Part shown: piece after piece, positions 57,409-64,000 of the stretch | How the letters are laid out: each line of letters starts with the position of its first letter | Numbering within the stretch: the stretch's first letter is position 1 | Source: Alloacidobacterium dinghuense | GTDB taxonomy: Bacteria; Acidobacteriota; Terriglobia; Terriglobales; Acidobacteriaceae | Assembly (NCBI RefSeq): GCF_014274465.1 | Contig: NZ_CP060394.1 | Location: 1,674,001 to 1,738,000, forward strand | DNA: 64,000 bases | Direction: 5' to 3' | Made by a program: the position numbers and the translations under genes | The notes under the pieces: model-generated | Database searches by the model: none | What the model was told of the DNA's origin: nothing | What the model saw: the letters and a program-made list of their open reading frames with translations, nothing else

Positions 57409-57862
57409 ATGATGGAATGGCCACATGCTGCCTCTGATGGCATCATCCTGCTGGCTCACGGAACCCCCGATGTTCTGGGGGAGATGCATGCTTATCTCAA
57501 ACTGGTGACTGGCGGCCGGGCGTACCCCCGGAAGCTGTTCATGAACTGCAGGAGCGCTACGCGCAGAACGGTTTATCCGACACTTCGGCAGGCCGCGCTT
57601 CTTGAGGAGCGGCTTGGACGAAAGATATATGTGGGCATGCGTAATTGGACACCATTCATTCTCGACGTTGTGGAAGAGATGAAGCGAGATGGGATAACGA
57701 AAGCCAAGACGATCTGCCTGGCACCGTAGAATTCGCGTACCAGCGTGGGACTTTATAAGCGAGCGATCGACGAAGCAGCAGGCGACTCGATCGATGTCGA
57801 GTTTATTGCCGGAGGGGCAGACCACCCGTTGTTGATTCAAGCATTCGCTGAACGGTCGCGTG
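57409..57862 (+). pseudogene. ferrochelatase (HemH) pseudogene, broken and truncated
   Basis: The start encodes GIILLAHGTPDVLGEMHAYLKLVTGG (in parts), a ferrochelatase N terminus. At about 57520 the homology moves to the +1 frame (VPPEAVHELQERYAQNGLSD), then returns near 57590 to LEERLGRKIYVGMRNWTPF. A stop TAG at 57727-57729 replaces the Gln codon of CLAPQNSRTS. The homology resumes after it (NSRTSVGLYKRA) and ends at about 57862, half the normal length. A frameshift, a stop and a truncation make it non-functional. Confidence 0.87.
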
Positions 57863-57873
57863 TAGGACACGAT

Positions 57874-58403
57874 ATGCATTTTCTTTTTGTAGGGACAAAT
57901 CACAAGACCCTCCGTTGAATTTCTTGAGCGATTGGCGATGAATGCGGATGACCTTGACGAGGTTACGCGTGGACTCCGTGCAATCCCCGGCGTCGATGAA
58001 GTCATGGTGCTTTCGACCTGCAAGCGCGTGGAGGTTGTCATCCCTTACCCCGGAGACAGGCCAAGATCTATCAGGCTGGGTTGGGCAACAATTCAATCTG
58101 GATGCCAGCACGCTACGGTCGTATTTCTATGAGCACCGAGAGATCGATGCGGTCCAGCACTTGTTTCGTGTGGCCTCAAGTCTCGATTCAATGGTGGTTG
58201 GAGAGCCGCAGATCCTGGGACAAGTGAAGAATGCCTATGCTGCAGGTCGGTTGGGCGGAACGATCGGTCCACATCTTGAGAAGTTGCTGCAATCGGCTTT
58301 CTTTGTTGCAAAGAAAGTGCGAACGGAGACGCAAGTCGGCAACGCATCGGTATCGATAGCGTCGGTCAACCGACGCGCCACCTTGTCAGCGCTGAACTTA
58401 TGA
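57874..58403 (+). pseudogene. glutamyl-tRNA reductase (HemA) pseudogene, broken and truncated
   Basis: It begins MHFLFVGTNHKT, the family start, 12 bp after the ferrochelatase relic. Then frameshifts occur near 57910 and 58040. The catalytic region VMVLSTCKRVE is still visible in one frame, and YFYEHREIDAVQHLFRVASSLDSMVVGEPQILGQ (in parts) in the next. Homology stops near VRTETQVGNASVSIASV at about 58370, about a third of the normal roughly 430 residues. Heme synthesis must rely on another copy elsewhere. Confidence 0.87.
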
Positions 58404-58431
58404 CCAGACTTGAGGCCGAGAGGGTCATCGC

Positions 58432-59036
58432 ATGATTCTGGAGACTAGACCAAGGAACTTCTCTGGAGAACCTCGCCCACTGGATGAGCATCGTCTCGCA
58501 GCGCAGGCAAAATCTGAAGACTCGCAAACCCTCGCGCGCGTCATCGAACACAACAGGGCTAAACTGATCAGAGTTGCCTTGCGGATAACCCAGCACCGAG
58601 AGGATGCGAAGGATGCGGTGCAGGAAGGATCCCTTCGAGCCCATCAGAATCTGGCACAGTTTCAGGGCAACTCCGCGCTTAGCACGTGGTTGACGCGGGT
58701 CGTCGTGAACGAAGCCTTGTCGTGTCTTCGCAAAGGCGGGCGGATCATTTGTCACTCGATGCTCCCGTTGAGACCGAAGATGGGCTGGTATTCCCGGATC
58801 CATTGGAAACGCAGCCAACACCGGAACTTTAGTACGTTGAAACCGAAGCCACGTCTCGCCTGCATAAACTGGTGAGGAAACTACCTCCAGCCTTTCGTCC
58901 GATAATTGTCTTGCGTCATGTTGACGAATTGAGCATAGAAGAGACGGCAGATGCCCTTAGGATTAGTGTGGCTGCAGCGAAACGCAGAGTCCTGAGAGCG
59001 CGCCGTCGGCTTCGTGAGAGCCTTAGTACGTGCTGA
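58432..59036 (+). pseudogene. sigma-70-family factor pseudogene
   Basis: The first frame (58432 to about 58740) encodes a region 2 like that of ECF or sigma-70 factors (LIRVALRITQHREDAKDAVQEG, in parts). Homology moves to another frame near 58745 with LDAPVETEDGLVFPDPLETQPTPEL, then meets a TAG stop at 58830-58832. It continues to region 4 (VLRHVDELSIEETADAL, RISVAAAKRRVLRARRRL) and ends in TGA at 59034-59036. Both halves are recognisable, so inactivation by frameshift and stop is recent. Confidence 0.84.
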
Positions 59037-61986: not shown

Positions 61987-62451
61987 ATGGAAGTCGTGCG
62001 CACCAATTCTGACGCCTTGGTTGTTAATAAGCTTCCCGATGGTTCCAGAGTCATTGTCGACCCCAACAACGAGACGGTTCTTGCTCTAAACGCAACAGCC
62101 GGCGCGGCATGGGACGCGTGCAGCAGTCCGACGACTCTATCTAAGGTGACGGAAGATATGCGGCGTTCCTTTGACCGGACGGTCACTGAGGATCTAGCTG
62201 CAGAAGCGATTCTGCGCCTGGAGGAGCAGCAACTTGTGAAAACATCCGGACTGCAACCCAATCGCAGGCAATTTATGGCAACTTTGGGTGCCGCAGCCTT
62301 GCCGCTAGTCGCATCGCTGCCGTTGGTGGAACAGCGAGCATATGCGCAGAAGGCGCGGTCAGCACCCTCGACACCGCCGCCTTCGACACCACCTCCTGAC
62401 AACGGGCATGGGATTCTCTGGTGGATCCTGCACTTGCTGGGTCTTGTGTAA
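61987..62451 (+). CDS. PqqD-like protein with internal Tat signal and Pro-rich tail (copy 1)
   Basis: A 154-residue protein with GGAG 9 bp before its ATG. Residues 1-85 form a PqqD-like winged helix (LPDGSRVIVDPNNETVLALN, ATAGAAWDAC). Residues 91-120 look like a twin-arginine signal: NRRQFM, an Ala/Leu core and the cleavage-like AYA at 118-120. The tail 121-154 begins QKARSAPSTPPPSTPPP and ends GHGILWWILHLLGLV. A signal peptide in the middle of a cytosolic-type domain is unusual. PqqD domains bind precursor peptides in RiPP pathways. It lies 220 bp before a paralogue. Confidence 0.82.
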   Translation: MEVVRTNSDALVVNKLPDGSRVIVDPNNETVLALNATAGAAWDACSSPTTLSKVTEDMRRSFDRTVTEDLAAEAILRLEEQQLVKTSGLQPNRRQFMATLGAAALPLVASLPLVEQRAYAQKARSAPSTPPPSTPPPDNGHGILWWILHLLGLV

Positions 62452-62483
62452 GCGGCTACTCGGATCGCCCAGACTTCGGCGAC

Positions 62484-62505
62484 AAGTTGCAATTTTTTGC
62501 AACTT
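62484..62505 (+). promoter_or_regulatory. perfect inverted repeat between the two PqqD-Tat genes
   Basis: AAGTTGCAA (62484-62492) and TTGCAACTT (62497-62505) form a 9-bp stem around TTTT. The TTGCAA element recurs nearby (at 62517-62522). With no T-run on the plus strand, it looks more like an operator or an mRNA hairpin than a terminator. Confidence 0.55.
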
Positions 62506-62670
62506 ATCGCAACTCATTGCAATGAATGACTCGAATAATTGAGTTACCGAAGACTCGTAGAAAGTTACCAAGAGATTATCGATAGAAACCAGGCTGGCTC
62601 GCTTACACTTCCTAAGTGAAGGAAGTGCGGAAACGACCGCATTGGTGAAATGCCAAGAAGAGAGGCCAAA

Positions 62671-63090
62671 ATGCACATAGAGCGAGCGAATGCAGACGGC
62701 TTAGTGATAAACCAGTTGCCTGACGGCTCCAAGGTCATTACGGATCGTGCGAATGAAACGGTCTTTGCTCTGAACTCGACAGCTGGCGCAGCGTGGGATG
62801 CATGCAGCACTCCGACGACACTCTCCGTGATTAGGGAAAACATGCGGCAGTCGATCGGTTCGGGGGTAAGCGAGGAATTGGCGGAAGAGGCGATTCTCCA
62901 ATTGCAGAAGAACAAGCTGGTGACGGCAACAGGATCGTTCTCGCAGGCGACGCGGCGCGAGTTCCTCGCGTCCTTGACAGCCGCCGCGTTGCCGCTGGTT
63001 GTTTCGTTGACAGTGGCTGAGCAACAGGCGTTTGCCAAGAAAACACGATCTGTGCCGCGCCCCGACCCGGACCCGAAGCCGCATTCCTAA
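62671..63090 (+). CDS. PqqD-like protein with internal Tat signal and Pro-rich tail (copy 2)
   Basis: A 139-residue paralogue from ATG 62671, with AGAGAGG upstream. In the first 84 residues I count 52 identities to copy 1, and in the Tat-like segment (RREFLASL at 95-102, AFA at 120-122) 18 of 28. The tails share only the start (xK-x-RS-x-P). This one is 17 residues, KKTRSVPRPDPDPKPHS, and ends in Ser. The pattern of a conserved front and divergent end is like precursor-peptide families. Confidence 0.82.
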   Translation: MHIERANADGLVINQLPDGSKVITDRANETVFALNSTAGAAWDACSTPTTLSVIRENMRQSIGSGVSEELAEEAILQLQKNKLVTATGSFSQATRREFLASLTAAALPLVVSLTVAEQQAFAKKTRSVPRPDPDPKPHS

Positions 63091-63227: not shown

Positions 63228-64000
63228 ATGTCAATTACTTACAGTTTCGGTGTTTCCGCATTTGGCTGTAATATGCGTGTGGCGTCTGAGTCCCTTGACG
63301 CCTACTCGGTCCTAAAACGTTATGTTTTCCCGTCGCTGTCGAGACGAATGGATGACGCGGGTCCGGCGGATGTCTTTGTTCGCATAGTACAGGTGGCGGA
63401 TCAATTTCATTTGTCTGTGGATAATGTTGTAGTCGCGTCATCCGGGCAAGCGATCAATCTGGTGCCCGATCTCATCAGGGCATTGGACGATGCTGTGATT
63501 CCACGCCTGACCACACTGCGCGCTGTTCATGCGGGCGCGGTCTTATTGGGAGAGCGGGCCTTGTTGCTACCGGGTGCTACGCATGCGGGCAAATCGTCAC
63601 TGGTGGCAGAACTTTTGCGACGTGGTGCTACTTATTTCTCTGATGAGTATGCGTTTATTGATTCAAGAGGCTACGTGCATCCGTATCCGCGCCCACTGCT
63701 CGTGCGGAATGGCTGTCCAGAGCAACTCCCTATGCTTGCGGAAGAATACAACGCTACGGTTGGTGATGTTGCCGCACCAGTTGGATGGATTGTCTCGCTG
63801 GAATATATGCGGGAGGGTAAATGGAATGTTGCTACGGTTCCTCAAAGCGAGGCTCTGCTGAACCTCTTGCGGAATACGCCGCACGTTCTTTCGGAGATGC
63901 CGGATATGATAGGCGTCTTTCAGCGCGCGGTTGCGGGAGCCGCATGTTATGCCGGGCGGAGGAGCGAAGTGGCTGACGCGGCTGACCATGTCCTACAGTT
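63228..64000 (+). CDS. HprK-related kinase, 3' end beyond the window
   Basis: An open frame from ATG 63228 runs off the right edge with no stop (257 complete codons). The P-loop at residues 116-123 is GATHAGKS, followed by LVAELLRRGATYFSDEYAFID. This Gly-Lys-Ser and acidic SDE pattern is that of HPr kinase-like proteins (HprK-related kinase A/B). Relatives occur with PqqD proteins in HPr-related peptide loci and as lasso-peptide C-terminal Ser kinases. It follows copy 2 by 137 bp. Its C terminus, and so family branch, cannot be seen. Confidence 0.75.
   Translation, partial: MSITYSFGVSAFGCNMRVASESLDAYSVLKRYVFPSLSRRMDDAGPADVFVRIVQVADQFHLSVDNVVVASSGQAINLVPDLIRALDDAVIPRLTTLRAVHAGAVLLGERALLLPGATHAGKSSLVAELLRRGATYFSDEYAFIDSRGYVHPYPRPLLVRNGCPEQLPMLAEEYNATVGDVAAPVGWIVSLEYMREGKWNVATVPQSEALLNLLRNTPHVLSEMPDMIGVFQRAVAGAACYAGRRSEVADAADHVLQ

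Follow-up and report, generated by a model that had tools for sequence, protein, structure and literature searches.

Candidate phosphopeptide precursors in Acidobacteriota that carry a PqqD domain, a twin-arginine-like signal and a variable tail in one chain

The known role of RRE domains is to read leader peptides that are molecules of their own. Two adjacent genes in the 64,000-nucleotide stretch of the Alloacidobacterium dinghuense genome analyzed here (the window) raise the question of what such a domain does when a twin-arginine-like segment and a tail follow it in the same chain. The original prediction, made from the letters of the two genes, was that they encode paralogous precursors of secreted, Pro-rich peptides, with a PqqD leader, a Tat-like signal and a variable core fused in one protein. 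Its central idea is well supported by the comparison of homologous sequences described below. What it had missed are the HprK-like kinase, the NTP_transf_5 enzyme and an invariant serine in the tail, which by analogy point to phosphopeptides of the LPP or paeninodin type. We consider it likely that the two proteins, P1 and P2 (Table 1), are LPP-like phosphopeptide precursors in which the docking domain is fused in cis, and that their tails are exported by Tat and trimmed by signal peptidase.

Table 1. Features of the precursor locus, in positions of the window
Feature	Position	Strand	Evidence
P1, PqqD-RR-tail precursor, 154 aa	61987..62451	+	ORF, PF05402, alignment, AlphaFold
P1 N-terminal PqqD/RRE domain, aa 1-83	61987..62235	+	PF05402 E 1.9e-6; predicted bbb-aaa fold
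P1 twin-arginine signal, aa 93-120, RR to AYA, predicted cut after aa 120	62263..62346	+	RR, P106 and V108 in 29/29; A118 in 28/29; A120 in 27/29 close members
P1 tail, 34 aa, predicted exported peptide	62347..62448	+	
P1 Ser125, +5 after AYA, proposed phosphorylation site	62359..62361	+	Ser in 29/29 close members
P2, second precursor, 139 aa from homologous start ATG 62671	62671..63090	+	
P2 twin-arginine signal, RR to AFA	62953..63036	+	
P2 tail, 17 aa	63037..63087	+	Tail Ser at 63049-63051
HprK-like kinase, 262 aa, extends 16 bases past the window (stop included)	63228..64000	+	TIGR04352 E 1.1e-12, 47.6 bits vs cut-off 200

In the PqqD part P1 and P2 agree at 52 of 84 positions, and from RR to A-x-A at 18 of 28; these figures, like the tail lengths of 34 and 17 residues, agree exactly with the hand counts of the original prediction. 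The first ATG of P2, at 62650, is an alternative start that gives 146 residues (62650-63090). Neither tail contains a cysteine. A third copy with 61% identity lies 464 kb away in the same genome (G000:C1:1271550, locus L009), and no kinase or nucleotidyltransferase was found in the 20 kb examined around it. Elsewhere in the window, short frames at 57409-59036 resemble by eye pieces of ferrochelatase, glutamyl-tRNA reductase and a sigma factor, and seem to be broken.

The front part of both proteins has the features expected of a PqqD-type RRE domain. P1 matches PF05402 with 28.5 bits against a cut-off of 23.4, P2 falls slightly under it with 21.6 bits, and all 25 aligned members match at E<=1, the best at 9.3e-9. 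An AlphaFold model of P1 made from a 24-row alignment (mean pLDDT 85.2) has the bbb-aaa order of strands and helices of the RRE winged helix. The top Foldseek matches of this model are TigE, a TbiB1-leader complex and PqqD, none of them at E<=0.001, and the best PDB matches of the fold include lasso B1, TigE, MccB and PqqD, all with Z under 8. A second structure comparison gave a middling Z of 7.9 for TbiB1 across residues 1-89, and 16 of its 20 top matches are what we take to be RRE-bearing proteins; MccB, TruD and NisB carry RREs. When the A1 profile was run against the PDB, nothing matched clearly; the best hit was a ZitR regulator (E 0.006), and a lasso PqqD chaperone followed at 0.038.

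To place the two genes among relatives, homologues were found with profiles of the precursor front part, and 91 were kept, 29 close and 62 distant. The 29 complete close members come from 20 contig-scan loci, all in Acidobacteriota, from four further relatives and from the window's genome; L036, L038 and L039 (cut or with N), L064 (identical to L027), and L154 and L123 (broken or masked front) are excluded from the member counts. Searches of 61 relatives gave a match in 11 at E<=0.01, several of the weaker ones to the signal alone, and matches under 1e-30 only in the window's genome (G000), G003 and G036. Two class-level searches of 399 genomes found 16 and 21 with a match. At E<=1e-4, a profile of the distant members finds matches in 103 of the 396 phylum genomes searched, many through the PqqD part alone, and in 42 of the 396 below 1e-20. 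Distant neighborhoods were examined at 51 loci and at eight separate ones (L067-L074) that stand outside the 51-locus count. At the distant loci the order of PqqD domain, RR, hydrophobic stretch, usually A-x-A, and tail is kept. The PqqD-RR-tail class is present in several families of Acidobacteriota, and outside the window's clade it is mostly Cys-rich. A literature search covering titles and the start of abstracts, with most subscription papers outside its coverage, returned no description of such precursors.

A member with six cysteines also occurs on the Gemmatimonadota plasmid NZ_CP007129, with kinase and nucleotidyltransferase frames nearby, the latter on the opposite strand. In the plasmid search, one distant query matched Gemmatirosa only, and another matched 13 Halobacterium records in addition. 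These 13 matches (H3-H15) are annotated as PqqD family proteins and cover query residues 10-109 or 10-90; they correspond to the PqqD part of the distant member, mostly plus the beginning of the signal region.

A precursor should have a conserved leader and a variable core, and this is what the comparison shows. Among the 29 close members, median pairwise identity reaches 57% for the leader and 61% for the signal part, against 27% for the tail, the last figure standing without a shuffled baseline. The invariant columns of a 25-row alignment are LPDGS, A33, N35, A38, G39, AW, A44, C45, two Leu, RR, A104, P106, V108 and Ser125; judged from these columns in the aligned members, the resemblance of P1 and P2 is beyond chance. 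The word ‘paralogous’ describes the window's two copies, but a single precursor is the state at 19 of the 23 close loci where the gene is complete. Single copies in relatives had been named as a point against the original prediction; they are the usual case, but their tails still differ between genomes.

Codon changes give the same picture. Nonsynonymous change is higher in the tail than in the leader in 10 of 11 close pairs, the exception being L021c/L035b. Among the distant members, we compared 16 pairs that have at least six cysteines and whose fronts share 72% identity or more, with the conserved cysteines left out of the tail, and the tail exceeds the front (up to the first tail cysteine) in all 16. 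The contrast is largest in L112/L118 (0.44 vs 0.03) and L147/L149 (0.35 vs 0.03), each with six aligned cysteines, and smallest in L117/L120 (0.37 vs 0.19). Positive selection on the tails was considered and rejected, as tail pN is lower than tail pS in 11/11 close and 16/16 distant pairs. Because nonsynonymous change never exceeds synonymous change, we describe the tails as changing fast, and those of close members as loosely constrained rather than demonstrably driven. By eye, the tails of L024, L025, L027, L029, L065 and L066 are loosely alike near the C-terminus, and some tail types seem to be inherited.

In the close family, the one tail feature that all members share is a serine at +5 after A-x-A (29/29 in the alignment); beyond it, the tails, which range from 10 to 65 residues, have no common core. 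Proline makes up at least a fifth of the tail in only 8 of the 29, and most distant tails are Cys-rich; ‘Pro-rich’ is a local and not a general trait. L021 has a long Pro run. Counting cysteines in the letters after RR+24, we found none in 17 close tails, one in 2 and two in 10. The 62 distant tails have six (29 tails), eight (16), ten (5), twelve (1), seven (1) or at most two (ten tails). Thus 52 of the 62 carry 6-12 cysteines, and the number is even in 51 of these 52, which fits the expectation for disulphide-bonded exported peptides. A lipoprotein reading was rejected, since by eye the tail cysteines have no preceding lipobox. The member at L067:6255-7016 has a tail of over 100 residues that by eye has more the look of a folded domain than of a short peptide, with the Ser at +5 kept.

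For the distant members, the position of a possible modification site is less sharply defined. The residue just ahead of the first cysteine is Ser or Thr in 36 of the 52 distant tails with at least six cysteines, against 58 of 287 before later cysteines, a comparison that ignores kinship between the sequences. Within five residues before the first cysteine it is found in 50 of 52, and 208 of 294 stretches before later cysteines have it too. This is a trend, not an invariant. Ten distant members were also scanned with knottin families, and two of them scored slightly over the cut-off, L143 with PF06357 (Omega-toxin) and L115 with PF07740 (Toxin_12). These tails are like inhibitor cystine knots in that respect, but they are bacterial and stand behind an RRE-Tat leader, and those of P1 and P2 are Cys-free; the matches are short matches of cysteine spacing and no evidence of toxicity or function.

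The segment between domain and tail has the marks of a twin-arginine signal. RR precedes a hydrophobic stretch in 91/91 members (29/29 close, 62/62 distant), Ser or Thr stands ahead of RR in 72 of the 91, and a strict A-x-A is present in 74 and absent at the position inspected in 17. The A-x-A finder set some cut positions too late, and the RR and Ser counts were taken from the alignment instead. On the other hand, the generic Tat models speak against it: the window proteins are below the cut-offs (P1 with 14.4 vs 22.7 and 13.6 vs 16.7 bits), and at E<=1 TIGR01409 matches 5 and PF10518 matches 1 of 25 members. The distant member L013 does pass a generic Tat HMM (21.1 vs 16.7 bits). The Tat character that we ascribe to the signal is inferred from the invariant RR, the Ser/Thr before it, the A-x-A and the TatC gene present in the window's genome.

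Within the hydrophobic region, P106 and V108 are unusually conserved. A P-Phi-Phi motif occurs in 29/29 close and 54/62 distant members, and in 1 of 5 ordinary Tat signals, a control too small to use; ALPLV is also found in one ordinary Tat-like protein of the window's genome. The alignment-based AlphaFold model makes residues 108-112 a strand, and a low-confidence single-sequence model has a helix there up to 109. Because of this conservation and the modeled strand, the RRE domain may bind its own signal segment. One member, at L110:2655-3062, ends directly after the signal region (VEAYD), a leader without a core, with kinase and nucleotidyltransferase frames adjoining.

The gene neighborhoods bring in two enzymes. 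In the window's genome the HprK-like kinase adjoins the precursors, and NTP_transf_5 genes lie elsewhere, one of them at G000:C1:1510648. Of 26 close loci, 21 have a kinase next to the precursor and 18 an NTP_transf_5 enzyme (PF14907, E 4.7e-62 in L020; divergent in orientation in the close loci inspected). No kinase was seen at five loci: L037 and L038 are cut off by the contig edge, L039 is broken by N letters, and L009 and L028 have none in the stretch examined; eight of the 26 show no nucleotidyltransferase. Among the 51 distant loci, 30 have both enzymes within 3 kb, 8 the kinase only, 6 the nucleotidyltransferase only, and 7 neither; the kinase is on the same strand within 300 bases in 31 and the nucleotidyltransferase in 29. 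The eight separate loci have both enzymes in five cases and the nucleotidyltransferase alone, the kinase alone and neither in one case each, and in L071 and L073 precursor, kinase and nucleotidyltransferase follow head to tail. The enzyme motifs look intact, with H, GK and D of the kinase kept in 69/69 aligned sequences and G, R and DxD of the nucleotidyltransferase in 63/63. A kinase profile run against the PDB matched HprK only at E 0.035. An ABC ATPase with a membrane protein recurs in three loci. We also considered whether the PqqD protein could be the discrete partner of an unseen radical-SAM system and rejected this, as no such neighbor was noticed by eye in the partly annotated gene lists.

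The closest parallel is with the linear polyphosphorylated peptides (LPP) of Bacillota, whose core consists of an RRE, an HprK kinase and an NTP transferase (Popov et al., 2026; PMC13381572). There, LppK phosphorylates Ser3 of a linear core that is released by a signal-peptidase-like enzyme, Thr in place of Ser at the site is not phosphorylated, and the class is described as restricted to Bacillota. The family studied here has the same three components, a precursor with a conserved N-terminus and a very variable C-terminus, a serine near the core start and a predicted signal-peptidase-type cleavage. By this analogy, the invariant Ser at +5 would be the obvious equivalent of Ser3. In LPP, however, the RRE is a separate protein that reads a YxxP leader, and a dedicated SipW-like SpI and an MsbA-like pump are used, whereas here the RRE is inside the precursor, together with a Tat-like signal and A-x-A. 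YxxPxVL is not present in the A1 consensus of our family, and no recurrent SipW-like SpI or MsbA-like exporter was seen among the partly annotated neighbors. As the discrete RRE and the YxxP leader are absent, we class the family as LPP-like in its working and not as a member of LPP.

Two other systems share part of this equipment. In paeninodin and pseudomycoidin, a kinase (PadeK, PsmK) phosphorylates a precursor serine and a nucleotidyltransferase (PsmN) is needed for hexoses on that serine (PMC9266682), and a His-Lys-Asp-Asp motif is reported for lasso kinases. The putative likeness is one of enzyme kinds, a kinase and a nucleotidyltransferase that would act on a serine of the precursor. 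The lasso peptides differ in their C-terminal serine, macrolactam ring, B2 peptidase and C cyclase; no recurrent B2 peptidase or Asn-synthase-like cyclase was seen among the partly annotated neighbors. The HPr-rel-A system likewise pairs an HprK-related kinase (TIGR04352) with a PqqD protein (TIGR04353), but our sequences miss the equivalog cut-offs, the window kinase lying far under its own and the best PqqD (L012) reaching 25.7 bits against 35, and the TIGR04353 model spans the domain only, without signal or tail.

Put together, these comparisons suggest a path from precursor to product, whose steps and whose product's role we infer. The N-terminal PqqD domain would recruit the adjoining HprK-like kinase and the NTP_transf_5 enzyme encoded elsewhere in the genome. 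The kinase would phosphorylate the invariant serine close to where the tail begins, after which the nucleotidyltransferase would cap or glycosylate the serine phosphate. The twin-arginine segment would direct export of the tail by Tat, with signal peptidase I cleaving after A-x-A, so that removal of the leader and export would coincide. The reader domain seems to have been turned into a part of the leader, and since export seems to be handed to Tat, no dedicated peptidase or pump would be needed.

The evidence from signal, tail and cysteines is independent of the enzymes. The precursors could be secreted small proteins without phosphate, in which the PqqD domain is a chaperone-like cytoplasmic n-region that restrains the tail, Tat exports it, and the enzymes serve another target, for example a surface polysaccharide. 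A considerable share of the loci have only one of the enzymes close by, or neither, and deletion of the LPP nucleotidyltransferase caused no change in the expression host (PMC13381572). We nonetheless find this reading improbable, given that precursor, kinase and nucleotidyltransferase occur within 3 kb at 30 of the 51 distant loci and close together on the Gemmatimonadota plasmid, and that the tail serine is invariant in the close family.

The role of the tail can also be questioned. If the hydrophobic stretch were a membrane anchor and the tail a spacer, the protein would be an RRE adaptor whose real substrate is encoded elsewhere. The usual target of a PqqD domain is a separate peptide, on which it acts in trans (RRE-Finder), and the low generic Tat scores would fit such an anchor. 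But an anchor has no need of the RR that all 91 members keep, the even-Cys, fast-changing distant tails resemble products, and no second small conserved frame was noticed nearby in gene maps that omit frames under 60-80 residues; an adaptor of this kind is quite unlikely. Even less can be said for decay in the window's clade, by which Cys-rich peptides would have become functionless, low-complexity Pro-rich or charged tails. The low cysteine counts, the spread of tail lengths and the Pro run of L021 are what decay might leave behind, but a leader pN far under pS (0.06 vs 0.29 in L022/L062), the unbroken conservation of the serine and the intact motifs of kinase and nucleotidyltransferase make a relic highly improbable.

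With phosphopeptide precursors as the preferred reading, a bolder extension can be put forward, which we hold as a tentative and rather doubtful proposal. The family would be a peptide class of its own, in Acidobacteriota and on at least one Gemmatimonadota plasmid, in which the RRE uses P-x-V to dock on the Tat h-region of its own chain, keeps that region in strand form and in this way holds back export as long as the tail serine is not yet phosphorylated and capped. The tails would form a fast-changing, disulphide-rich and partly knottin-like library in much of the phylum, and Cys-poor phosphopeptides in the window's lineage. If the phosphopeptide reading is true, peptides made with a kinase and a nucleotidyltransferase extend beyond Bacillota and the lasso systems to an abundant, little-studied soil phylum. 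A large number of variable Cys-rich peptides, so far untapped, could then be recognized by a simple rule: PqqD, RR, A-x-A and tail, near HprK and NTP_transf_5.

Some further enzyme genes were noticed along the way. A second NTP_transf_5 and HprK-like pair lies in the window's genome (G000:C1:4035596-4037000; L076:7141-9537), with no PqqD-RR-tail gene in the 16 kb examined around it. At L023:6479-8569 and L036:6419-8506, the latter grouped by similarity only, the kinase forms the last part of a frame some 700 residues long, and the front of the L023 frame scores over the cut-off for glycosyltransferase family 2 and weakly for family 25.
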